Shown piece by piece: positions 25,702 to 41,331 of a stretch of DNA of 64,000 nt. Origin of the DNA: Serratia nematodiphila DZ0503SBS1 (GTDB taxonomy: Bacteria; Pseudomonadota; Gammaproteobacteria; Enterobacterales; Enterobacteriaceae); assembly GCF_000738675.1 (NCBI RefSeq), contig NZ_JPUX01000001.1, forward strand, positions 62,001-126,000, written 5' to 3'. A program made the translations under genes and the position numbers. The stretch's first letter is position 1. Each line of letters starts with the position of its first letter. The notes under the pieces are model-generated. The model was given only the letters and a program-made list of their open reading frames with translations. It was not told the DNA's origin and did not search any database.

Positions 25702-26565
25702 ATGATCCGCAGCATGACCGCCTACGCCCGGCGTGAAATCAAGGGTGAATGGGGCAGCGCAGCCTGGGAGCTGCGTTCCGTTAACCAGCGCTACTTAGAA
25801 ACCTACATCCGCCTGCCGGAACAATTCCGCAGCCTGGAGCCGGTGATCCGTGAACGTATCCGTGGCCGCCTGACCCGCGGCAAAGTCGAATGCAACCTGC
25901 GTTTCGAACTGGATCCAAGCGCGCAAAGCTCGCTGATCCTGAACGAAAAGCTGGCCAAACAGCTGGTCGAAGCCGCCAACTGGGTGAAAATGCAGAGCGA
26001 CGAAGGGGAAATCAACCCGATCGACGTGCTGCGCTGGCCGGGCGTGATGTCCGCGCAGGAGCAGGATCTGGATGCCATCAGCGCCGAGCTGATGCAGGCG
26101 CTGGACGGCGCGCTGGATGACTTTATCGTCGCACGCGAAAGCGAAGGCGCCGCGCTGAAAACGCTGATCGAACAGCGCCTCGACGGCGTCAGCGCCGAAG
26201 TGGTCAAAGTGCGCGCCCAGATGCCGAACATCCTGCAATGGCAGCGCGAGCGCCTGGTCAGCAAGCTGGAAGAGGCGCAGGTGCAGCTGGAAAACACCCG
26301 CCTGGAGCAGGAGCTGGTGCTGATGGCGCAGCGCATCGACGTCGCCGAAGAGCTGGACCGCCTGGAAGCGCACGTGAAAGAGACGCACAACATCCTGAAG
26401 AAGAAAGAAGCCGTCGGCCGCCGCCTCGACTTTATGATGCAGGAGTTCAACCGCGAATCGAACACCCTGGCCTCCAAGTCGATCAATGCCGACGTCACCG
26501 CCTCCGCCATCGAGCTGAAGGTGCTGATCGAGCAAATGCGCGAGCAGATCCAGAATATCGAGTAA
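25702..26565 (+). CDS. yicC: YicC family endoribonuclease; host gene of island insertion
   Basis: 287 aa. YicC_N domain (MIRSMTAYARREIKGEWGSA) and C-terminal DUF1732 region (KKKEAVGRRLDFMMQEFNRE, ~233; the last ~85 residues). YicC proteins are reported RNases, linked in E. coli to RyhB decay. The last codons (QNIE then TAA) are supplied by the mobile element: the displaced original 3' end (same residues, TGA stop) is 16.4 kb downstream at 42960-42979. The reading frame and protein sequence are restored exactly, so the host gene remains functional. Confidence 0.95.
   Translation: MIRSMTAYARREIKGEWGSAAWELRSVNQRYLETYIRLPEQFRSLEPVIRERIRGRLTRGKVECNLRFELDPSAQSSLILNEKLAKQLVEAANWVKMQSDEGEINPIDVLRWPGVMSAQEQDLDAISAELMQALDGALDDFIVARESEGAALKTLIEQRLDGVSAEVVKVRAQMPNILQWQRERLVSKLEEAQVQLENTRLEQELVLMAQRIDVAEELDRLEAHVKETHNILKKKEAVGRRLDFMMQEFNRESNTLASKSINADVTASAIELKVLIEQMREQIQNIE
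26537..26561 (+). repeat. attL, left island junction in the yicC 3' end
   Basis: Core AGATCCA (26546-26552) with right arm GAATATCGA (26553-26561) and chromosomal left arm TGCGCGAGC. The core plus flanks recur at 42959-42979 with 19 of 21 bases identical. The right arm is the exact reverse complement of the left arm at attR (TCGATATTC), the layout expected for a tyrosine-recombinase crossover site. Confidence 0.9.
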
Positions 26566-26766: not shown

Positions 26767-28005
26767 ATGACCTCACTCACAGCCAGGACAGTTCAGGCTC
26801 TCATCAAAGCAAGAGAACCGGGGAAGTTTGGAGATGGGCGAGGCTTGTACCTGAAAGTCCCACAAAAAGGTGAGGCGTATTGGATGCTTCGATACACAAT
26901 CGGCTCTAAGAGACGAGAAATCACCTTAGGTAAGGTATCTCATCTATCTCTGTCCGAGGTTCGTAGCCTCGCTGAGGATACTCGAAGAAAAGTTGCCACC
27001 GGGGATGATCCTATTGCTGAGAGAAAACTCAATCGCCCTAAGCAACTGACCACAGTAGATGGACTGTTTGAAGACTGGCACAAAGACCTGGTTAGGCGGT
27101 TGAAGCATCCACAAATCCCAGAAAGGGTATACAGGAAAGATATTGCTCCTACGATTGGTCAACTTTCTTTGGCGAAGATAACCCCCATTGATGTTCGAGC
27201 CATTCTCCAAAAAATTACAGATAGCGGAAGGCCAACCATTTCAAATGATGCCCTACTCTACATGAAGCAACTCTTCGACCATGCAATCAAGCTTGGATTA
27301 TTGTTAAACAATCCAGCTTCTGCGTTTAAGGTCAATGATGCAGGTGGAATCGAAAAAAGCAGAGAAAGAGCATTGAGTCTGGAAGAAATTGGTCAGGTGT
27401 TTAAAGTTTTCAGAGAACACTCTGACAGCTTCTCTCGTGATAACTACCTTGCATGTGCCCTACTTCTACTGCTGGCAGTTCGAAAAAGTGAACTTACGGA
27501 AGCGCCTTGGTCAGAATTTGACCTTGATGAGAAAAAGTGGTCTTTACCAAAAGAAAGGAGTAAGTCAGGAGTGGGCATTGTGATTCCGCTACCCCCACTG
27601 GCAATTGAAATGTTAAAAGAGCTAAAGGTCAGAGCTTTTGGTTCTGATTATGTCTTTCCTAACCGCAGATCCAGTAAGAATCTACATATGGGAAAAGATA
27701 CCCTCAACAGGGCGATAGCCAAGCTATTCGGGGTAGAACCGGGTAAGAGGAAGCAACCACCTAATGTAATGGGTAATATTGAATATTTCACAGTCCATGA
27801 CTTACGAAGGACTTGCAGAAGTTTACTTGCATCACTGTCTGTTCCCCCACATGTCGCAGAAAGATGTCTGAACCATAAGCTGAAGGGTGTAGAAGGTATT
27901 TATGACAGATATGATTATTTTGATGAAAGAAAAGAAGCCTTACAAAGGCTTTCAGAAAGATTATCAAAAAAACCATTTGAACACTTCATTATTCCAGCTT
28001 TATAA
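26767..28005 (+). CDS. int: P4-type tyrosine integrase of the island
   Basis: 412 aa from ATG 26767; the frame extends 12 codons further up but the family N-terminus is LTARTVQALIKAREPGKFGD. Domains: N-terminal DUF4102-like arm-binding region (to ~90), core-binding SAM-like region (~95-190) and catalytic domain. Catalytic residues: Arg in LLLAVRKSELTEA (~240), HDLRRT (~341), HK in CLNHKLKG (~367) and Tyr in YDRYDY (~378). It lies 201 bp from attL, as expected for the enzyme that inserted this island in yicC. Its 3' end overlaps the converging McrC gene by 17 bp. Confidence 0.95.
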   Translation: MTSLTARTVQALIKAREPGKFGDGRGLYLKVPQKGEAYWMLRYTIGSKRREITLGKVSHLSLSEVRSLAEDTRRKVATGDDPIAERKLNRPKQLTTVDGLFEDWHKDLVRRLKHPQIPERVYRKDIAPTIGQLSLAKITPIDVRAILQKITDSGRPTISNDALLYMKQLFDHAIKLGLLLNNPASAFKVNDAGGIEKSRERALSLEEIGQVFKVFREHSDSFSRDNYLACALLLLLAVRKSELTEAPWSEFDLDEKKWSLPKERSKSGVGIVIPLPPLAIEMLKELKVRAFGSDYVFPNRRSSKNLHMGKDTLNRAIAKLFGVEPGKRKQPPNVMGNIEYFTVHDLRRTCRSLLASLSVPPHVAERCLNHKLKGVEGIYDRYDYFDERKEALQRLSERLSKKPFEHFIIPAL

Positions 28006-29245
28006 GTGATTTTTTAATACTCTGATTCATTTGTTCTATCGAGTTTTTAATATCACCTTTGAGACTAAACTTACAATGGTAAAATTTAATACCACTATTT
28101 ATTGTACCAATAAATTCGAGGTCGGTATTTTCATCCATTGAAGGAGATATCCATAATGCCACGGATGTTTTGAGTGCTGTCGCATGACTAATTAATTGAT
28201 AACGGTCAGACTCATCAATTTTAGGTTTATATTTTACCTCACCAAGCATGATAGGAACCTTCCCTTTTTTAAAAATCAAATCAGGTTTAACTGGAAACCT
28301 TTTATTATCAGAAAAAAGAATACCTTGATGTTTTTTTTGGTTTCCATCAAAAACACGAACTCCAAACTTCATAAAATAATTCGAAATGCAATTCCTTATA
28401 AAGTTTTCAAAAACAACATCCATATTAAAGAGAAAAGAAGGCATTCTAGTTCCGTCTGGATTGAAAGAGAAACCTATTTTTTTATAACCTAAAAGAATTG
28501 CATAAGTAGTAAGAAGACCATCATAATGTTTTTTATTAACAGAGTCAGCCTGATTCAGCAACGTATGATAGTCTGGATTCATTTGACGCGGCTCAAGCAT
28601 TTCCAATATACTCAGCGCCTCTAGAAGAATATTTTTTTCCTCTTCAACGTTATTAAGCAATCGTGATTTTTGAAGAAACGCCAAACAACTTTTCTTAATT
28701 GTTTGGTTTAAAGCAATATCTCTTGAGAAAATGAATACATCTGAGGCTACAGTATAATGATTGCCTTTTAAAATATGTTTTTTTAAAGTTCGCCCGAAGT
28801 TTAAACTAGGCCTATAAAAACCTTCTTCTTCTTCTAATTTATATTTTCTTGTAAAAGAGCTATCTAAGATAGGTCTTAGGAAAAAACAAAAACTCTTTAA
28901 AAGCACTTTTAAAGGAACATCACTATCATTAACTTCATAGCTTCGCAGAAATGGTAATAATGAATCACAAGATACATCTGAAATTCTGACCATTTCCCAA
29001 AGATTGACAATAGGGAACTTTGGTTTGATATTTATGATTATTTCGCTTGTTAAAGGCAATAGCCCTACAATGCCAAGAACCCGTAATTCAATGCCATTAA
29101 TTGTATCTCTTAAATCTATTACGGATAACTTCCTGGCACTTTCAAAAATTAGTGAATTACCGAATTGATCGTAAAGCATTTCTTTAGGGAAACGTCTAGT
29201 CTCCCTTTCAAACAAATCTATTACCAATGTTTTAGAGTCATTCAT
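27989..29245 (-). CDS. McrC-like restriction endonuclease subunit
   Basis: 418 aa. Resembles the McrC/McrBC 5-methylcytosine restriction component: N-terminal beta-rich partner-binding part and a C-terminal PD-(D/E)xK nuclease, with KPDLIFKKGK (~328, Asp) and MLGEVKYKP (~343, E-x-K). It would be recruited by the McrB-like NTPase to cut DNA. Third gene of the methyltransferase-McrB-McrC run, 19 bp after mcrB. AT-rich. Also similar in plan to LlaJI-type R2 subunits. Confidence 0.85.
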   Translation of the reverse strand: MNDSKTLVIDLFERETRRFPKEMLYDQFGNSLIFESARKLSVIDLRDTINGIELRVLGIVGLLPLTSEIIINIKPKFPIVNLWEMVRISDVSCDSLLPFLRSYEVNDSDVPLKVLLKSFCFFLRPILDSSFTRKYKLEEEEGFYRPSLNFGRTLKKHILKGNHYTVASDVFIFSRDIALNQTIKKSCLAFLQKSRLLNNVEEEKNILLEALSILEMLEPRQMNPDYHTLLNQADSVNKKHYDGLLTTYAILLGYKKIGFSFNPDGTRMPSFLFNMDVVFENFIRNCISNYFMKFGVRVFDGNQKKHQGILFSDNKRFPVKPDLIFKKGKVPIMLGEVKYKPKIDESDRYQLISHATALKTSVALWISPSMDENTDLEFIGTINSGIKFYHCKFSLKGDIKNSIEQMNQSIKKSLIKLE

Positions 29246-29264
29246 TTTATATCTCTAATTATTT

Positions 29265-30800
29265 TCACTCGAAATTGTCATCAGTTAATAGTTCAATTAT
29301 TTTCTGTTTAGTCTCTTCATACTTGCTTCGATCATGCAATAATGCCCTTTTTAACGGAAGCGATATTTTAGCTTTCCATATAGACATTAAATCTTCTTGA
29401 GACTTAACTTTCATGAATCCAGCATGGCCAAAACCATTTGGGAAAGCATTATTTATTAAATTAAATACAAAAATGATTTTTCTTATTAGCGAATCTTCTA
29501 TCCCTTCATCTTGTAATTTTTTTTCAAGAGTAAGTTGGTCCGGTTCAAAATTTATAACCCAAAACCGTCTCAAAAGAGCATCATCAAGCTCAGTAATGGA
29601 ACGGTCATAAGGATTAGCTGTAGCTAATATAATTATATTTTCAGGTATGAAAACTTCTTTGCCAGAGAATGGCAAGGTAAAAATTTTATTCCTATAATCT
29701 CTTTCTATATATGTTAAAGCTTCACCAAATATTCTTTGGACATCACCTCGATTTAATTCGTCTATAACGATGACATGAGGTTTATCATTACTTAACTTAG
29801 CTTTCTCACAAAACTCTAAAAAAAGTCTTGGTGCCAGCTCATAGGTAATATTCTGATTCACTTCAGAATATTTTGGTCTAAACCCTTCAACAAAGTCGTC
29901 ATAACTTATAGCTGGATGAAATTGAAGATATATTATATTTTCCTCACTGGTAATTTTATTGGCTATTTTTCGAGCATAGTGGGTTTTACCAGTACCAGGG
30001 GGACCTACAAATAAAAAATTCAAACTTTCCTGATTACGGATGGATGCCATAATTTCAGAGTATATACTGTCATCATCACCTAACTCAGGTTCTACTATTT
30101 CATCTTCAACCATAGAATCACTTACTAAAGATTCTTTGAATTTCGGAGCTAAATTTTCTAATATTATATTCGAAGATTGTTTTTCATTATCTAATTCAGG
30201 CCAAGGTATATCACCAAAAATTCTAAATCTTTCATGGAAAGCTGGTGGAAAACTATCTATACCAAGCTCTTGAGTTAAAAGAAAATTAAATAACAAATCC
30301 CACGAAACTATATTATCTGGGAATCCTTTAAATGCAAATAACCATATGAGGAAGTATTCAAACCTGAAACTATCTGGGACTTCATTCTCAAACCTTGGTT
30401 GGAACTGATCCGTTAGTTTAACAAGGGATTTTTCTCCTTCAATTAACCCCTGCAACCTCATCTCTCTATATCCACGAGATGAAAAAAGATTACCCCACAT
30501 CTTAGTATCTTGCCGAATAACAAAATCCCCACTATAGGGACCTGTTTTCCAACCAACAACGTCTTTAAAACGGGGACGAAGAAGATTATTACCTCTTTTA
30601 GTTGGAGGAATATCCAATAAATTACCATTAAAATACCTGTCCAAAAAGTGATCCGTACCTAATTTTTTAGACATATCAACAACTTCCGTTGTACTCACTT
30701 CATTAGAAGCAAATACGAAAGCAGGCAAAAGCCAATTTCCATTGAACTGTTGGAGATGCTCTATAGCCTCGATAATTGATGAAATTTTGAAGTATTTCAT
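29265..30800 (-). CDS. McrB-like AAA+ NTPase, restriction subunit
   Basis: 511 aa. C-terminal AAA+ domain (~270-490): Walker A FVGPPGTGKTHYARK (~273), Walker B HVIVIDELNRGDVQRIFGEA (~346), and sensor ILATANPYDRSITELDDALL (~391, in place of the McrB MNTADR motif). The first ~250 residues do not look like the E. coli McrB methylcytosine-binding domain and are presumably the specificity domain; the family of that part is not recognised. It would form the hexameric motor stimulated by McrC. 9 bp downstream of the methyltransferase. Confidence 0.85.
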   Translation of the reverse strand: MKYFKISSIIEAIEHLQQFNGNWLLPAFVFASNEVSTTEVVDMSKKLGTDHFLDRYFNGNLLDIPPTKRGNNLLRPRFKDVVGWKTGPYSGDFVIRQDTKMWGNLFSSRGYREMRLQGLIEGEKSLVKLTDQFQPRFENEVPDSFRFEYFLIWLFAFKGFPDNIVSWDLLFNFLLTQELGIDSFPPAFHERFRIFGDIPWPELDNEKQSSNIILENLAPKFKESLVSDSMVEDEIVEPELGDDDSIYSEIMASIRNQESLNFLFVGPPGTGKTHYARKIANKITSEENIIYLQFHPAISYDDFVEGFRPKYSEVNQNITYELAPRLFLEFCEKAKLSNDKPHVIVIDELNRGDVQRIFGEALTYIERDYRNKIFTLPFSGKEVFIPENIIILATANPYDRSITELDDALLRRFWVINFEPDQLTLEKKLQDEGIEDSLIRKIIFVFNLINNAFPNGFGHAGFMKVKSQEDLMSIWKAKISLPLKRALLHDRSKYEETKQKIIELLTDDNFE

Positions 30801-30809
30801 GGTAATCCC

Positions 30810-31811
30810 TTATTTTTTATTGCCAGGCTTTCTAAAATTGGCTTTATTACCAGCCCAAGAACTCCATAAAGGTGATGGCTGTGAGACTCTTTGGATAATT
30901 TTATCAAACTCAATCCTTTGATGACCGTCTGCCTCAAGGGAAGTGTCAATAAAATCAATGTAGTCGGGACTCATATCAATACCAACAACATTGCGATCAT
31001 TAGCTAAAGAAGTAAAAATAGTAGTACCACTACCTACAAATGGATCTAGCACATGCCCACCCACCGGACTACCGATCTCAATGCATCTTCTTACTAATTC
31101 AGAAGGAAATGAAGCATTGTGATTAGCTCGACGACTTCTTTCGATAGGGATATTCCATACATCTTCTTCAACAAGCATAGAACGATCGAAGCTGTAAAAA
31201 CGGCTTTTGGAAAACATGAAAACGAACTCATATTGTCTGTAAGGACGATCTCTTGCCGTAGGTTCGACAAATGCATTACAACGGTTCCAAATGATAGAAC
31301 TTCGCAAAGTCCATCCTCGGTTCTGCATAGCAAATGCAACTTTCCACGGGATACCAATTAAACTTTTTTTAGGTATATCCCAACCACTTTGGTCTACAGG
31401 TCTAACCTTCTGCCGTAAAAAATCTCTGGAGGCGCATTTAGGATCGCGACCATGCGGCTGCCCATTGCCAGAATAATATGTATCACCAATGTTAAGGAAG
31501 AAAACGCCCTCTGGATGTAAAGTTCGCTTTACTTCATCGAATACCGTCATCAATTGTTCAATGTAAGCTTCCACAGAAGCTTCATGCCCTAATTGTCCTT
31601 CATAACCATAATCTCTTACCCAGAAATAAGGTGGAGAAGTAACGGCAACGTTGAATACATTGTCTGGAAGTTTTTTCAGGCAAGAAGCGGAGTCGCCCTT
31701 TAGCAAGCCCGCCATGTGCATAGCACCAGACTTAAAGCACATTTTATCTTCAGTCTGCTTATTGACAGCTTGGAAACTTGTGGCAAGATCCAGTTCTAAG
31801 TTTTTCTTCAT
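30810..31811 (-). CDS. beta-class DNA methyltransferase, probably N4-cytosine
   Basis: 333 aa. Catalytic motif IV TSPPYFWVRDYG (~58) precedes motif I HVLDPFVGSGTTIFTSL (~255), the beta-class order. SPPY is typical of N4-cytosine (and some N6-adenine) enzymes. DNA-binding target region between ~120 and 220. First gene of the three-gene restriction module, so it should mark host DNA at the sequence the McrBC pair attacks, or mark the sequence they read. The C-terminus is slightly basic. AT-rich coding differs from the backbone. Confidence 0.87.
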   Translation of the reverse strand: MKKNLELDLATSFQAVNKQTEDKMCFKSGAMHMAGLLKGDSASCLKKLPDNVFNVAVTSPPYFWVRDYGYEGQLGHEASVEAYIEQLMTVFDEVKRTLHPEGVFFLNIGDTYYSGNGQPHGRDPKCASRDFLRQKVRPVDQSGWDIPKKSLIGIPWKVAFAMQNRGWTLRSSIIWNRCNAFVEPTARDRPYRQYEFVFMFSKSRFYSFDRSMLVEEDVWNIPIERSRRANHNASFPSELVRRCIEIGSPVGGHVLDPFVGSGTTIFTSLANDRNVVGIDMSPDYIDFIDTSLEADGHQRIEFDKIIQRVSQPSPLWSSWAGNKANFRKPGNKK

Positions 31812-34919: not shown

Positions 34920-35498
34920 ATGAAATTCTTCATGATGAAACGTGTAATGCTGGCGATTGCACTCCCTGTTTTTGTTGCTTTTTTTGGGGGCGCTAAGGTC
35001 ATGTCAGTTTATTGGGTGCCCCTGTTTTTTATCAGTGCGATGCTATGTGCAACAGCTTATGGCAAATATGTCGTCAGGAAAAACAATGATGCTACATTCA
35101 ATTATCTGAATGAAAATAATGATGGGATCTATATTCATAAATTCAATGACTGCGAGATTAGGTTAGACAAAAATAAACAAGAAGTATTTCTTAAAAATAG
35201 CGCAGGGGCAAAAACGTATTCTTTTGATGATATCAAAGAGTGGCACTACAACATTACATACGGTGGTGAAGTTGCAGGTGCTGGATTAACTAGTATCAGA
35301 GAGAACGGTAAAACATTAGGCCAAAACATCGCTGATACAGGTCTCTTTATCCGCGTAAAAGACGTTCGTAAACCAGAGTGGCATATCCGGTTCTATCCCC
35401 GTAATGATGCTTTTAATTCGCGTAATGGGTTGAATGATTTGAAGACGCAGCTCAACCAATGGATGGAGATCTTTGATCAGAATTTAAATGCTGCATAG
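34920..35498 (+). CDS. small membrane protein of unknown function
   Basis: 192 aa. AGGAAA precedes ATG 34920. Two hydrophobic segments at the N-terminus (~8-27 and ~30-50) are followed by a soluble domain with IRLDKNKQEVFLK (~76), TYSFDDIKEWHYNI (~98) and PEWHIRFYPRND (~148); this layout recalls DUF4755-type proteins. Likely an inner-membrane protein with a cytoplasmic domain. It has its own promoter region and a strong terminator, so is a single-gene unit. Role unknown. Confidence 0.6.
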   Translation: MKFFMMKRVMLAIALPVFVAFFGGAKVMSVYWVPLFFISAMLCATAYGKYVVRKNNDATFNYLNENNDGIYIHKFNDCEIRLDKNKQEVFLKNSAGAKTYSFDDIKEWHYNITYGGEVAGAGLTSIRENGKTLGQNIADTGLFIRVKDVRKPEWHIRFYPRNDAFNSRNGLNDLKTQLNQWMEIFDQNLNAA

Positions 35499-35517: not shown

Positions 35518-35548
35518 AAGCCTGTATGCTGACATACAGGCTTTTTTT
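35518..35548 (+). terminator. terminator after the membrane protein gene
   Basis: AAGCCTGTATG / CATACAGGCTT, an 11-bp perfect stem with CTGA loop and T7 tract. Confidence 0.92.
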
Positions 35549-35566
35549 ATTTTACAGTAATTAAAT

Positions 35567-35595
35567 TTGACAACAGGAAAATGGTACGTCATAAG
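35567..35595 (+). promoter_or_regulatory. sigma-70 promoter for the antisense RNA
   Basis: Consensus -35 TTGACA (35567-35572), exact 17-bp spacer, then CATAAG (35590-35595, 4 of 6 to TATAAT). Predicted start near 35602, which is the base of a 13-bp hairpin. No plus-strand gene follows, only an RNA-like segment and a terminator. Confidence 0.6.
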
Positions 35596-35646
35596 TTGAA
35601 TAATATGGCTACCAGTGCTAGCTGGTAGCCATATATCAGCAACCCC

Positions 35647-35724
35647 TTAGTAAACCGGTTGGCTATACAAAAGGATGCTGATAAAAATCGCTATCCTTAG
35701 CAGGTTTGTGAGATTATTATGCAT
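35647..35724 (-). CDS. 25-aa hydrophobic peptide, candidate type I toxin
   Basis: ATG at 35724 preceded by a perfect AAGGAGG (35731-35737) with a 6-nt spacer, and stop TAA at 35647-35649. The peptide starts MHNNLTN, has a hydrophobic core LLRIAIFISILLY with one Arg, and ends QPVY. Size and single-membrane-segment character match small toxins such as ShoB, TisB or Ibs in style, without clear sequence similarity. It is opposite the candidate antisense RNA. Too short for normal ORF calling. Confidence 0.5.
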   Translation of the reverse strand: MHNNLTNLLRIAIFISILLYSQPVY

Positions 35725-35788
35725 AATCCACCTCCTTCTTTATAATTGTTATTTTAAGGACCTGTGGTCCAAGTGTATAGTAGCAGCA

Positions 35789-35814
35789 AAAGCACCCTCA
35801 TGGGTGCTTTTTTT
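35789..35814 (+). terminator. terminator of the candidate antisense RNA
   Basis: AAAGCACCC / GGGTGCTTT, 9-bp stem with TCAT tetraloop and T7 tract on the plus strand. No plus-strand protein gene lies between it and the previous terminator, so it implies a separate short transcript. Confidence 0.85.
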
Positions 35815-35952
35815 GTTCATCTAAGGGTATGTAATTGAGAAGTGTGAAGGAATTCCGCTTTGGAGAGAACTTCTTGTTGATAGTCAAGCCACGTTTTTCG
35901 ATGGGTAAGATACGACATAGCATTCAGGCTAAAAATTCAAAAGCTAAAGATA

Positions 35953-36369
35953 CTATTTATGTCCATGACTTATATTAAACTCGATGTCCCTTTTCCTCAA
36001 ACTCATAGCCAACAGAGATCTATCATATTTTCTTTTTTCTGTTATAAATACACTTTCCGAATTAGCTTTGTTTTTCATGATAAAGTGAATAAGTAATCCA
36101 CACATTCTTCTTATTCTCTCAGCGTCGATTACTCTTTTTTCAACATTGTTAATAAAGCAGTAATAAGAGGTAAGCATAAAAGATAAAACAATATCCCTGT
36201 TAGCTAACTCTATATTATCAATGTCATTTTTATACTTGATATAGAAACCTACACAAAAAAGGTAAGATTTATCAATTATATCTGATTCTGATAGTCCAGA
36301 CTCTTCGAGTTTCTTCACGAAACGTTCAAAAAGAATTAGAAAACGCTCCATGCTATTTAATTTTTCCAT
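35953..36369 (-). CDS. hypothetical protein
   Basis: 138 aa from ATG 36369 (AAGGA 8 nt upstream; an ATG three codons earlier overlaps the ribosome site). Mainly alpha-helical with VKKLEESGLSESDIIDKSY, a hydrophobic FMLTSYYCFINN stretch (~75), and a basic end (RKRDIEFN). Not recognised. It lies downstream of the four-gene recombinase operon with a 115-bp gap, in the same direction. Confidence 0.45.
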   Translation of the reverse strand: MEKLNSMERFLILFERFVKKLEESGLSESDIIDKSYLFCVGFYIKYKNDIDNIELANRDIVLSFMLTSYYCFINNVEKRVIDAERIRRMCGLLIHFIMKNKANSESVFITEKRKYDRSLLAMSLRKRDIEFNISHGHK

Positions 36370-36484
36370 AATATGCATCCTTGCAATTTATTTTGGTCAT
36401 CCTGACAATCAATAAATAACAGTATTAGTTTAAAAATCAATACCTCAGTAAAAATATATTTACAGCATGTAATATTAAATTTAC

Positions 36485-36880
36485 TTAATTGTCGTTTTTT
36501 GCACGTAATGGTTCATTTAGCTGGTGTGGCTTAAGTCCATATTTATATGAATTGTACTGCCATAGTGTAAACTGTTCTTTATATCTATTATTCTGCTTTT
36601 TAAGTATTTCAATTTCGACCTCCAGCCCCTTAATTCTCTGGGCTGCAATATTCAGATTGGCAGGTTTTCTAAAAACCTTCCCATTAATTTTTAACCTTTC
36701 CTTTTTCAATAAATACGCATGAACTATCTCTTTATGCATATTCAATGACTGGCGAGTAGGTTTCTTCCCTATATGGGATTTTACTGACTCACATAACAAT
36801 TCCCATGTTAACTTTCCATCCCAAGTATTTATAGTGTTTTTTATTTTATTAATGTCATTTTGTGTTAAGTGTTTCGCCAT
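36485..36880 (-). CDS. small protein of the recombinase operon (TnpC/GmtX-like position)
   Basis: 131 aa from ATG 36880, with TTGGAGG directly upstream; a TTG start 12 bases earlier is unlikely. N-terminal DNA-binding-like part (KLTWELLCESVKSHIGKKPT, ~20-39), then a coiled coil (AAQRIKGLEVEIEILKKQNN, ~78-97). Size, place and coiled coil recall TnpC of Tn554 (DUF6262-like) and the small GmtX protein of Gamma-Mobile-Trio islands, both encoded next to two or three recombinases. It follows the third recombinase by 27 bp. Confidence 0.6.
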   Translation of the reverse strand: MAKHLTQNDINKIKNTINTWDGKLTWELLCESVKSHIGKKPTRQSLNMHKEIVHAYLLKKERLKINGKVFRKPANLNIAAQRIKGLEVEIEILKKQNNRYKEQFTLWQYNSYKYGLKPHQLNEPLRAKNDN

Positions 36881-36907
36881 AACATCCTCCAATATTTTTA
36901 TAATAAA

Positions 36908-38785
36908 TTATTTACCTGTTTTGAAATGGTTTCTTTTCTCAAGATTATTTAATACGTCTTCATGAAATGAAACCCATTTGTCTGCGCCATAAAAGCCATC
37001 ATCTACTGCTTGTTTTGCCATTTTAAGAAACAAACTTATTTTATTGATAACTTCTTTCTGCTGTTGCTCATTCATCTCACCATAATCTTCCCATCCATAT
37101 GCCTGAGCTTCTGCCAATTTTCGGCAAGGGGGAATGACATAGTTATGAATACAATAACCCTCTGATGTCAAGTGAGCCGCACCATGAGCCAGATTCTCTA
37201 ATACAACCATATTATTAGATTTGTTATCCATAGGGGAGCAATAACGATTACTTCCGAGTTTTAAACTACTTATCTTTTCAAGTATCTCTTCCTGAGATGT
37301 GTGATTATAATTTTTGTTTTGTAAAACACTAACTCTTCCTGACCATTTTGCTATATTTAATTGAGATAAATCACCCAATTGTGCGATTGTGTTTAGTAGA
37401 TGCCTAGGTTGATGAGTGCGTAAGAAAAGACATTTGCCAAACTGATCAAAGTAGCCATGACGTTTAAAAATATTGTTAACCTCAGGTTTCATCTTTCGAG
37501 ATTTCTCTATATCTCGTGATAAATCACTATAACTAGGTTTGTAAAGTGTATAGCAAGCTGTCATTTTAACTTCATGGCATTGATGCAAATTCAGCAAACA
37601 TAATGCATTACTATACCTAACTGACTTTTCTTTATCTAACCAAGGGAAATCCTGCGGTAAATTTTTTCTTATCAACTTCCAGAGTTTATGTAGCGTATAG
37701 TATCTATCAGAGTAATTCAGAAACGAGACTCCGCCATCAAGACTCGTGCGCTTTAATTTATTAATACATTGTCCTTTATCATCCAATCGATAGCCAAGAG
37801 CATGACAAACCTGACGAACATCAAGTGGTTCATGTTCATCCACTTCAGGACAAAGCGGGTGTCTATAAAATTTATCAGGTGAGCGTTCACACCATCTGGC
37901 AAGAGAGCGGGCATTTTCAGAAAGTTTAAGTAATCTTGAAACAGCTTTTTGGGCGACAGGGATCATGACATCAGGTATCCACTTAATAGTCGCACCACCA
38001 CCTTTCGCAGCATAATAACGAAGCCCATAACGCTCCACACCATTTCTATCTTTCCTTGTTATTTCACAGTCAGCAGGTAAAGCCAAAATCTCTGAGGCAC
38101 GACTTGGTGAACACATTAATAAAGCAATAACAGATGTAGTAAAAAGATCTCTTGAGCTAAGTTTTTCATCTGGCCTTGAAAATATCTCCGCTATTGAAAA
38201 TAGGGCACGCTCATCTGGTAATTTGTGTATCCTATCTTCATCTTCTTTTTCTGGGAGGTAGTTGTTTTTAAATCTTGGTTTAACTGGATTTGTCCAGCTA
38301 ATAAACCCACACCTGACAAAGCGATGTTCAGATAAAAAAATACTTAATTTTTGAAGTTCATAACCACATTGATGAAGAACATTGCTCTTATAATGTTTAC
38401 TTGCTATCTGTAAAGCTTCATCCAGAACTATGGTAGAAACATTATATACATGTGCATTATGACAAGTTTGCAAAAGAGCTTTTTCAAGACATCTTAATGC
38501 CAATATTTTTCTTCCAGGTGTCTTAACTGAACTCAAAGCCTGATTGTACCTTATATAGCTTTTAGCGAAATCAATAAAATCACTATCCAGTCTATCTTTA
38601 CTTTCTACCAATCCGTATCCTGCTTTCAATTTTCGAAAGGCTGCAATTCCTTTCCACGAACTGGAATTCCAGTCTATAATATCATCATAAATAGTTAATT
38701 TATCACGACAGAATGTTATAAAATTTCTGACATTTTTGATTGCATCCAATTCATGACTTGCTTTAAATTCAACAAGATTATTCAT
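36908..38785 (-). CDS. large tyrosine recombinase, third of the trio
   Basis: 625 aa, close to the ~630 aa of Tn554 TnpB. C-terminal catalytic domain: Arg in ALLMCSPSRASEILALP (~222), Lys in YYAAKGGGATIKW (~258), THQPRHLLNTIAQ (~463, H-x-x-R-H), WSGR (~484) and Tyr in NKNYNHTSQEE (~492). After the catalytic Tyr comes a Cys/His tail (AAHLTSEGYCIHNYVIPPC, ~540-558). Its start abuts the stop of the previous gene. AT-rich. GmtZ-like integrase of a Gamma-Mobile-Trio is an alternative name. Confidence 0.8.
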   Translation of the reverse strand: MNNLVEFKASHELDAIKNVRNFITFCRDKLTIYDDIIDWNSSSWKGIAAFRKLKAGYGLVESKDRLDSDFIDFAKSYIRYNQALSSVKTPGRKILALRCLEKALLQTCHNAHVYNVSTIVLDEALQIASKHYKSNVLHQCGYELQKLSIFLSEHRFVRCGFISWTNPVKPRFKNNYLPEKEDEDRIHKLPDERALFSIAEIFSRPDEKLSSRDLFTTSVIALLMCSPSRASEILALPADCEITRKDRNGVERYGLRYYAAKGGGATIKWIPDVMIPVAQKAVSRLLKLSENARSLARWCERSPDKFYRHPLCPEVDEHEPLDVRQVCHALGYRLDDKGQCINKLKRTSLDGGVSFLNYSDRYYTLHKLWKLIRKNLPQDFPWLDKEKSVRYSNALCLLNLHQCHEVKMTACYTLYKPSYSDLSRDIEKSRKMKPEVNNIFKRHGYFDQFGKCLFLRTHQPRHLLNTIAQLGDLSQLNIAKWSGRVSVLQNKNYNHTSQEEILEKISSLKLGSNRYCSPMDNKSNNMVVLENLAHGAAHLTSEGYCIHNYVIPPCRKLAEAQAYGWEDYGEMNEQQQKEVINKISLFLKMAKQAVDDGFYGADKWVSFHEDVLNNLEKRNHFKTGK

Positions 38786-40132
38786 CTATACCTCCTTAAC
38801 TGATTTTTTAAAATAAATACACCCATGACATGGCATTGCGGTTTTTTTTATGCAAGATAAACTCGTTTTCCCTGTTAATAAATCACCGCTATTATGTGTA
38901 GGTGCAACTCCACTAATCTTGGCTTTACCAAGAAAGGCATCTGCAATAAGTGCCAAACCATTAGAAACTGCCTGATTGATTTTTTCAGCATTATCAGCAA
39001 GGTTTTCTGTATAAATACCCACACTCAAGATTGACGAATGATCTAATAACTCTGCAATTATCTCGTCCCTATACCCTTCACGAGCAAGTTTTGTTCCTAA
39101 GGTATAACGTAACCTGTATGCGTTTACTGTTATACGTTCTCCAGTTCTTTCTGAAATTACATTTTCTTTTTTGACAATTTTTTTTAAAGATACTCCAAAT
39201 ATATTTTTGGGTGCATGAAGCCTATCAGAAACTAACAAATCAAAAACATCTACCTTTCCACTTAATATTTCATATTTTCTGGCATCAAGAAAAACCGGTA
39301 CTTCATTTTTTTCTTCCAATAGAAGATGTCTATCAATGTAAGCCTCTACAAGAGATATAGAATTATTCGCCTGTCGCATCATCACGTTATAAAGATTACC
39401 ATCAATTCTCAATTCTCTGAAAATCTGCCTGAATCCAAAACCTTGTTTCACCCTGGGGATTCTCAAAAAGAATACTTCACTTCCATCTGATTTTTCATTT
39501 TTAATTATATCCTTAAATTTCAATGCGATAAGCTGTGATGCCCTTCGTCCTGTAAAACTAACTAACAACGCCGATGAGTATTCTAAAAGAGTTATTTTTT
39601 TATCTTTGTATGCACTATGAATAGCCTGATTTAACGAATTGTGTTCATTATCAGTCATAGCCCCCTTATTTGGGTCCTCTTGCTTAATAACAGAGCCTCG
39701 TGTTTTTACCTTTAACACCATTGATTTCATCAAAGTTATTACACTATCATCAACACCATAATAACCAATAGAATGCCATTTTTTTAAAAACGCCCTCAAA
39801 ACAATTAAGTCTTTTATCTTTGAATATGAAATGAGTGATCTATAATTCAAAATATCAAATTCGGAAACAAATATAGAATTAGTCCTTATAAAAAAATCTT
39901 TCATAATGACATTAATTCTTCTAACATACCCAGCACTATAGTTGCTTGCATAAAAAGCAAGCGTGTTTATATACCCTTCAATAAGTGAGGAATGAATGAA
40001 TTTTAATATACCCCCAACATTTACACTAGAACCACTATCTAATTTCCATTTAGCTTCATCAATGTTAAAAAAATAACCATACTGTTTCGCTTGTCTATTA
40101 CTATTATCCGATTTACATTCTTTCTTATTCAT
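38786..40132 (-). CDS. tyrosine recombinase, second of the trio
   Basis: 448 aa. Catalytic Arg in SFTGRRASQLIALK (~197), YRLRYTLGTKLA (~345, H replaced by Y in the HxxR box), LLDHSS (~365) and Tyr in VGIYTENLAD (~373). The C-terminus ends in a cysteine cluster TAMPCHGCIYFKK, probably a metal knuckle or redox pair. Its start overlaps the previous stop (TAATG), so synthesis is coupled. The Tyr for His substitution is unusual but known in some recombinases. No close relative is identified by eye. Confidence 0.8.
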   Translation of the reverse strand: MNKKECKSDNSNRQAKQYGYFFNIDEAKWKLDSGSSVNVGGILKFIHSSLIEGYINTLAFYASNYSAGYVRRINVIMKDFFIRTNSIFVSEFDILNYRSLISYSKIKDLIVLRAFLKKWHSIGYYGVDDSVITLMKSMVLKVKTRGSVIKQEDPNKGAMTDNEHNSLNQAIHSAYKDKKITLLEYSSALLVSFTGRRASQLIALKFKDIIKNEKSDGSEVFFLRIPRVKQGFGFRQIFRELRIDGNLYNVMMRQANNSISLVEAYIDRHLLLEEKNEVPVFLDARKYEILSGKVDVFDLLVSDRLHAPKNIFGVSLKKIVKKENVISERTGERITVNAYRLRYTLGTKLAREGYRDEIIAELLDHSSILSVGIYTENLADNAEKINQAVSNGLALIADAFLGKAKISGVAPTHNSGDLLTGKTSLSCIKKTAMPCHGCIYFKKSVKEV

Positions 40133-41331
40133 TACAACAATCCTTTTATTAGTTCTTGTTGCATAGCGAGAGATGCTTTATGAGCTTCCTCAATAACATG
40201 TCTCCTGTTATATATTTTTGCAGTTCCAGATCCCTCTTTCCATCCCATTAGATAAGACCTAATTTGCTCTTCTTTTTCCTGGGAGATACCTTCGCTCAAT
40301 CCATCCATTTTCTTGGAAAACTCGTAATTCCAAGTATGCCTTAATTGGTGTCCACATAAACCCGATAGCTCTGGATGAGAGTTTCTGATTAGTTTGATTA
40401 TCTTATGATATGCTGAAATTGATAGCGGCATACCATGAGTATTACCAGATTTGTAAGTAATAAACATAAAGTCGTTGAATTTTGATTTATTTATTTTATT
40501 TCGATTTACCGTTATATAATAATATATTTCACTCATTAAATCCTTCTCCACTGAAAATATTCGCTCACTCGTTTTTACAAGTGGTTGATTCACTCGCGGG
40601 TCAAAATTATCATCAGGTCTTCTTTTAATCACAATGGTGGAATTAATAAAATCAATATCACTTACTCTGAGGTTTAACACTTCACCAGCTCTAATGCCGA
40701 ATGAAAAAAGCATGAGTATAATTAATCTATTTCTTGGTTGAACTAAATCTGAGAAAGGATTTAATTCCGAACCCGGCTCGATAATATTAAATAAAAGATC
40801 AAGTTGTCTTCGGCTTAGAGACTTATCAGGCATCTCCTTTTTATATACATTTGAACCCAAAGGTCTTTTATGATTTAACTCAGCTATAAAAGCATCTACC
40901 CTATCTTTATTTTTTTTACCGTCTGATAGAGCCAAATGCATCTGGCAAAGCCACTTCATATAATCGATAACCACACCCAGCCTAAAATATTTAGTTGGAT
41001 TTTTCACAGAGGATGGATGACTTCTAAGACTACCTTTTTTTGAATTCTTTGACATATAATCAGAAAGACTATCTATCTCATTGGATTTCATAAATTCTTG
41101 GATTAATATTCTTTTATCTATATCTATATTATTTAAAGAAAAATAATTCATTAGTAATGCTAAGACCCCTGCAACAGCTCGCATAGTGTTAATGGAGTTT
41201 GCTCTATTTCTTATATGTGTGGTTAGATAAAGATTAGGATAATAAATTGGTTCTCCTGTTTTCTTATCAATCACATGACAGAACCTCTCACCATTTTTAA
41301 AAATAAAATTATTAACGCCATGCTTTTCCAT
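40132..41331 (-). CDS. tyrosine recombinase, first of the trio
   Basis: 399 aa. Catalytic Arg in LFSFGIRAGEVLNLRVSD (~212), CGHQLRHTWNYEF (~332), W in MGWKEGSGTAKIYN (~370) with Tyr ~380. Complete active-site set, so probably active. Similar in size to Tn554 TnpA (361 aa). It leads the operon, behind a 334-bp AT-rich region with a 16-bp palindrome. Confidence 0.82.
   Translation of the reverse strand: MEKHGVNNFIFKNGERFCHVIDKKTGEPIYYPNLYLTTHIRNRANSINTMRAVAGVLALLMNYFSLNNIDIDKRILIQEFMKSNEIDSLSDYMSKNSKKGSLRSHPSSVKNPTKYFRLGVVIDYMKWLCQMHLALSDGKKNKDRVDAFIAELNHKRPLGSNVYKKEMPDKSLSRRQLDLLFNIIEPGSELNPFSDLVQPRNRLIILMLFSFGIRAGEVLNLRVSDIDFINSTIVIKRRPDDNFDPRVNQPLVKTSERIFSVEKDLMSEIYYYITVNRNKINKSKFNDFMFITYKSGNTHGMPLSISAYHKIIKLIRNSHPELSGLCGHQLRHTWNYEFSKKMDGLSEGISQEKEEQIRSYLMGWKEGSGTAKIYNRRHVIEEAHKASLAMQQELIKGLL

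Follow-up and report, generated by a model that had tools for sequence, protein, structure and literature searches.

A small hydrophobic-peptide gene and its antisense RNA in a variable slot of yicC-adjacent islands: a probable type I toxin-antitoxin module

Within an island that follows yicC in the window (the whole 64-kb stretch of DNA analysed), we found a small cassette, probably a type I toxin-antitoxin module from a family not yet described, a reading to which we give a probability of about 0.7 on the strength of its sequence. Both signals by which type I systems are recognised in sequence are present, i.e., a gene for a small hydrophobic peptide with its ribosome site, and a gene for a complementary antisense RNA. 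Directly visible in the DNA are these elements, their recurrence in other genomes, the optional slot in which they lie and the other peptide/antisense pairs that occupy the same slot. The elements of the cassette and its two neighbours are listed below; version A denotes the form of the cassette present in the window and in four further loci.

34920..35498, plus strand: DUF4755 gene (PF15947, 221.5 bits), flanking the slot on its left and convergent with the toxin gene
35567..35595, plus strand: antisense promoter TTGACA-17-CATAAG (TTGACA at 35567-35572, 17-bp spacer, CATAAG at 35590-35595)
35602..35814, plus strand: antisense RNA of ~213 nt, the putative antitoxin, as predicted from promoter and terminator
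35603-35634, plus strand: 5' hairpin of the antisense RNA, 13 bp (arms 35603-35615 and 35622-35634), its stem the same in 4 loci
35724-35647, minus strand: toxin-like ORF of 25 aa, MHNNLTNLLRIAIFISILLYSQPVY, with one hydrophobic segment and a charge of +1; same length in all five version-A loci
35712..35728, minus strand: hairpin GAUUAU..AUAAUC that takes in the start codon, with both-side changes only in G186
35737-35731, minus strand: Shine-Dalgarno AAGGAGG, 6 nt from the ATG and unchanged in all five loci of version A
35770-35758, minus strand: 5-bp hairpin at the predicted 5' end of the toxin mRNA, with both-side pair changes in relatives
35785-35777, minus strand: extended -10 TGCTACTAT, the predicted toxin mRNA promoter
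35788..35815, plus strand: intrinsic terminator of the antisense RNA, a stem (35788-35811) and then a T-rich tail, listed by the terminator scan
35953..36378, minus strand: 141-aa gene, right neighbour of the slot, without a Pfam match; also slot-adjacent in L034 and L077-L080

An earlier note, made from the letters alone, had described a 25-codon minus-strand ORF for a hydrophobic peptide with a perfect AAGGAGG 6 nt from its ATG, and all of this was found where it had been placed. The toxin mRNA would start near 35770, beside the 5-bp hairpin. Its extended -10 is kept in relatives (as TGCTATTAT in G340), and the terminator scan returned no minus-strand terminator for this mRNA between 34900 and 36600. 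A leader-peptide reading of the ORF was rejected, as the minus strand has no gene between it and the convergent DUF4755 gene.

The plus-strand promoter proposed in the same note stood only in part: the TTGACA and the 17-bp spacer are as described, but the -10, CATAAG, is a weak box that shares 4/6 bases with the consensus and lacks the final T, which is why a stricter promoter scan does not list it. The 13-bp hairpin at the RNA start and the strong intrinsic terminator are both in place, and the RNA predicted between them spans the entire toxin ORF, its ribosome site and its leader. When both strands were folded, a check that the note had suggested, the antisense RNA and the mRNA proved more stable than shuffled sequences (z of -6.3 and -6.2, respectively, with 0/200 shuffles as good in each case). 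In G340, where the long hairpin is absent and the antisense RNA is predicted to begin within the last toxin codons, the pair folds with z of -3.0 and -2.4, values reached by 2/200 shuffles each.

The chance of such a layout was gauged with a filter for ribosome site, hydrophobicity, antisense promoter and terminator, which was defined after the locus had been seen. Of the 64-kb window, the filter passes the candidate locus alone; in E. coli GABEEC10 (L034) it passes the homologue of that locus, and 100 kb of E. coli K-12 gave no pass. In 2.28 Mb of Markov-random sequence, four ORFs had the ribosome site and hydrophobicity, and none of the four had the antisense promoter and terminator. The ibs loci of K-12 themselves fail the filter (only ibsC gets through the first stage), and it therefore gauges chance for this layout and not the detection of Sib genes.

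Version A comprises five loci, found in two genomes of the window's genus (the window's own, G000, and G016), Citrobacter gillenii, E. coli GABEEC10 and a genome of a further genus (G340). A DNA search of 392 genomes of the family returned the locus in four, G000, G016, G220 (C. gillenii UMG736, where the G220 and L036 sequences are the same) and G340; 119 of the 392 genomes matched at E <= 0.01, and beyond these four the matches were short and mostly to the terminator. Among 5426 complete E. coli genomes, GABEEC10 alone has version A (88.5% identity), in a yicC-adjacent island, flanked by a DUF4755 gene on one side and a small hypothetical gene on the other, with no annotated feature at the cassette. 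A covariance model built from the five loci recovered, in the 392 family genomes, the four known loci and, in G186, a copy that has diverged (48.6 bits, E 3.8e-5). The same model matched only the window's own locus in 394 genomes of the order and, at genus level, 2/30 genomes, both already known; the family and order searches used stricter filters, at which weak matches are lost. Seventeen further weak family matches (E 0.02-0.92) were returned, and the six inspected held no such locus; two pattern matches in metagenome bins (Bacteroidetes and Fibrobacter) were likewise set aside, their surroundings being unrelated. Plasmids and phages gave no blastn match to 451 bp of the locus and no tblastn match to the 25-aa peptide, and viral contigs gave no exact match to three degenerate patterns. 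The viral contigs did hold one DUF4755 relative, 28% identical.

The start, the Shine-Dalgarno and the hydrophobic core, whose loss in related islands the earlier note had named as evidence against its reading, are kept in all five version-A loci, as are the stop and the 25-codon length. Four distinct peptides occur among these loci (MHNNLTNLLRIAIFISILLYSQPVY in the window and G016, MNNNLLFLLRIAIFISILLYSQPAY, MNNNLLNLLRIAIFISILLYSQPAY and MKNNHLQVLRMVIFISLLLYSSSLY), with 14/25 positions invariant. With equal numbers of random substitutions, an open and equally hydrophobic ORF survives in 1.3% (G340) or 2.5% (C. gillenii) of trials. Exclusively synonymous change is not seen, as most codons that differ from the window are replacements (11/12 in G340, 4/4 in C. 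gillenii); within the peptide core, these replacements exchange one hydrophobic residue for another. The antisense promoter is also kept in the relatives, having been identified in G340 by reading.

Covariation was examined by aligning the five version-A loci with G186, six sequences that all have the terminator. Both-side changes were observed at 6/54 predicted pairs. Three of these lie in the mRNA 5' hairpin (two of them in C. gillenii and E. coli GABEEC10, the third in G186 alone), two belong to the start-codon hairpin, and the terminator has one (in G340 and G186). The 13-bp antisense 5' stem, absent from G340 and G186, has a variable loop and is itself invariant in the 4/6 loci where it is present, so it is uninformative on covariation. 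The covariation term of the consensus fold, +0.53 kcal/mol, gives no net support; such support as there is from covariation is local and comes from few independent lineages.

The gene yicC (25702-26565) precedes the island, whose first gene codes for an integrase. The island also has McrBC-like, DNA-methyltransferase, relaxase, DUF4755, recombinase, AlpA and DUF6387 genes along with the cassette, which the relaxase gene lies near. At 27989-31811, an N6/N4 DNA methyltransferase gene adjoins a restriction pair that is McrBC-like (PF10117 with an AAA ATPase), together likely defence cargo of the island. At 36485-41331, a small gene and three large genes lie in a row that recurs in related islands, two of the large ones having Phage_integrase matches and the third, of 625 aa, having no Pfam match.

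The place of the cassette in this island is a slot whose content varies. Flanks that match at 80-90% identity around a missing middle occur in 18 of the 5426 E. coli genomes; in the four inspected, 51-64 bp with a short inverted repeat separate the DUF4755 gene from the next gene, and the slot of G062 resembles these. Islands with an empty slot still carry a relaxase gene (L077-L080). Since the slot is empty in related islands, the cassette does not belong to the core machinery of the island. We also inspected another eight E. coli islands with the same recombinase type (L124-L131). In four of them (L125, L126, L127 and L129), the small gene is ~58 bp from a hypothetical gene that takes the place of DUF4755; L130 has an ankyrin gene in the slot, L131 an insertion element, L128 an A-like sequence and L124 a different module.

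Genes of the slot's surroundings were also met elsewhere. A Klebsiella michiganensis plasmid (L081:4001-6622) has a DUF4755 gene (75.5% identical) followed, 1.5 kb away, by a type II Phd/YefM-RelE/ParE pair, and a distant DUF4755 gene (26.5%, L121:2755-3387) shares a 5.7-kb Enterobacter plasmid with two genes of the Rop family. In G186, the slot-adjacent gene (L088:1354-2724) contains a long Glu-Pro codon run made by a perfect GGCTCT-type repeat; the relaxase of G382 has a similar Ala-Pro run.

The different module of L124, in E. coli TUM11353 (version C, found in 1/5426 E. coli genomes), encodes another hydrophobic 25-aa peptide, MSKKRSRALKVMLFILLMVVSTSVY, with a ribosome site. Its antisense promoter is 88.9% identical to that of the window over 36 bp (E 3e-10 in a two-sequence comparison), with a 14-bp 5' hairpin and then a terminator downstream of it. 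A promoter retained despite a changed peptide, together with the conservation of the elements in version A, supports the type I layout that the earlier note had proposed.

Version B, in the yicC-side island of another genus (G222), encodes a 21-aa peptide, MKIIVLVLIFITLMLISPSAM, and has TTGACA-17-TATAAA, a 9-bp 5' hairpin and a terminator on the opposite strand; it had no match in E. coli or in plasmids. The region scores 18.9 bits (E 0.78) against the version-A covariance model. In similarity to the G340 peptide, only 6 of 3000 shuffles did as well as the version-B peptide, in similarity to the C. gillenii one 69 and to the window's 80; as the similarity beats nearly all shuffles, common descent of version B with version A is likely, though not proven.

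The remaining form, that of G186, encodes VYNTPLTLLRLAILFSIVLSNI from a GTG start and lies beside the same small gene. E. coli NWU_1 (L128:3560-3760) has a near-identical copy with a GTG-start ORF of 22 aa, and this form occurs in 313/5426 E. coli genomes; among the 30 matches listed, 14 are named O157 and none has an annotated feature under it. In the G186 and NWU_1 copies the ORF is open, no TTGACA promoter stands at the version-A position, and the best antisense promoter candidate scores 9/12 with a 15-bp spacer. With that promoter missing from both copies inspected, the G186-type form may be decayed.

How would such a module act? An Ibs-Sib-like mechanism is our best guess, because the layout is the same. 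IbsC, a 19-aa membrane peptide in which central hydrophobic and C-terminal residues matter, is reported to depolarise cells when overproduced (PMC8309996); by analogy, the 25-aa peptide would be expected to insert into the inner membrane and, if overproduced, to damage the cell. Sib RNAs, which have this layout, are described as overlapping ibs over its entire coding region and its ribosome site and repressing it by blocking translation, with likely processing by RNase III (PMC4147584). The plus-strand RNA may likewise pair with the toxin ribosome site and coding region and block translation, exposing the duplex to RNase III, and the start-codon hairpin may further restrain translation. As loss of the island would end the supply of antisense RNA, the module would most likely favour retention of the island; alternatively, sister islands with a non-matching antisense RNA might be its target. 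This final step, in either form, is the least certain of the scheme.

Could the cassette be a far-diverged true member of Ibs-Sib by descent? This concerns its ancestry and is compatible with the type I reading; we regard it as possible but unlikely. In its favour, beside the shared layout, a C-terminal pattern, S-x-[PSAQT]-[AVLT]-Y, found in 28/32 Ibs peptides, recurs in the version-A and version-C peptides (5/7 tested) and in 7/9238 background peptides (our own loci among them), the pattern having been chosen after the peptides were seen. The C. gillenii locus also has a 20-nt local match to a Sib nucleotide model, which 4/500 random sequences reach; that model scored 1/4 loci. These hints of kinship are weak and partly post hoc.

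The family models tell against such descent. Pfam Ibs_toxin (PF13956) has no match in the window, C. gillenii, G340, G222, TUM11353 and NWU_1 peptides, and as a control it scores K-12 IbsA at 50.4 bits and IbsB at 43.0. An Ibs profile that we built from 32 Ibs peptides (members score 45.0-58.8 bits) gives the window peptide no score and the others -0.4 to 7.1 bits, values equalled by at least 12% of shuffles. Rfam has no match in the window at gathering score, and the 13 matches obtained in the locus at permissive E-values are all under their gathering scores. SIB_RNA (RF00113) is found neither in the window's genome nor, at E up to 10, in 35540-35840 or the TUM11353 slot, and in G222 reaches 13.4 bits (E 3.9), far under its 56-bit cut-off. 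A clear Sib is detected in C. gillenii (140.7 bits) and also in G186, so both hold a Sib and a version of the module. The earlier note had recognised no named family in the locus; Ibs-Sib is the closest by layout, and the sequence models tested do not place the cassette in it.

A non-toxic small membrane protein, such as an island regulator or exclusion factor whose level the antisense RNA only tunes, would also account for a hydrophobic peptide with a conserved start and core, the toxicity of which is predicted, and we consider this quite improbable. Across the three versions (A, B and C) the peptide is nearly wholly different and the antisense arrangement constant, which fits an antisense-controlled toxin better than it fits a specific regulator. 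It is very unlikely that the locus is a convergent-terminator region or a decayed, functionless module: it does lie between convergent genes, empty islands have a short inverted repeat there, and the G186-type copies have a GTG start and lack the version-A promoter, but the ORF, ribosome site, both promoters and terminator are intact in the five version-A loci, and versions B and C look intact as well. Least of all do we expect the structured plus-strand RNA to be the product itself, acting in trans in mobilization or regulation with the ORF incidental, even with a relaxase gene close by and a transfer-required small RNA described for another mobilizable island (Salmonella Genomic Island 1, PMC9299015), since the ORF and its ribosome site are conserved in five loci and relaxase-bearing islands without the cassette exist.

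Returning to the type I reading, these systems are described mainly from prophages and plasmids, and from genomic islands too (PMC12548467). On mobilizable islands they can go unnoticed, as gene finders usually skip peptides so short; the E. coli cassette matches listed have no annotated feature beneath them. Were the peptide toxic, it would offer a direct reason for the persistence of some such islands and a candidate origin for Ibs-Sib, which is known from chromosomal repeats. The filled, exchanged and empty slots at one site form a natural comparison set for the effect of the module on its island. More speculatively, the antisense promoter may be retained while the toxin and the antisense specificity diverge fast or are exchanged, such that sister islands that compete for one attachment site would lack cross-protection, with the chromosomal Ibs-Sib loci descending from mobile modules of this kind; we hold this combined proposal to be rather improbable.

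Among the open-access papers found on Ibs-Sib, type I systems, yicC islands and DUF4755, no title or abstract opening describes the locus, and its novelty is claimed within that scope. Among the known systems, sgm-sRNA is, like the antisense RNA here, a small RNA carried by a mobilizable island; it is described as essential for transfer and encoded between mpsA and oriT (PMC9299015), whereas the cassette is missing from relaxase-bearing islands. DqlB-AgrB, a dinQ-like system of pOXA-48, shares with the cassette an unannotated hydrophobic peptide and an RNA antitoxin on a mobile element. By its description (PMC12365149) it stands apart, its antitoxin RNA acting in trans, in contrast to the whole-gene overlap seen here. 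Closest is Ibs-Sib, with a peptide of ~20-25 aa bearing a hydrophobic segment and an antisense RNA that covers the whole ORF and ribosome site (as described in PMC4147584), preceded by a TTGACA promoter with a CATAxx-like -10 and starting with a hairpin at its 5' end. The two differ in that the cassette's peptide is longer at its N-terminus, and in that the cassette is an optional part of mobilizable islands, whereas the K-12 loci are chromosomal repeats.
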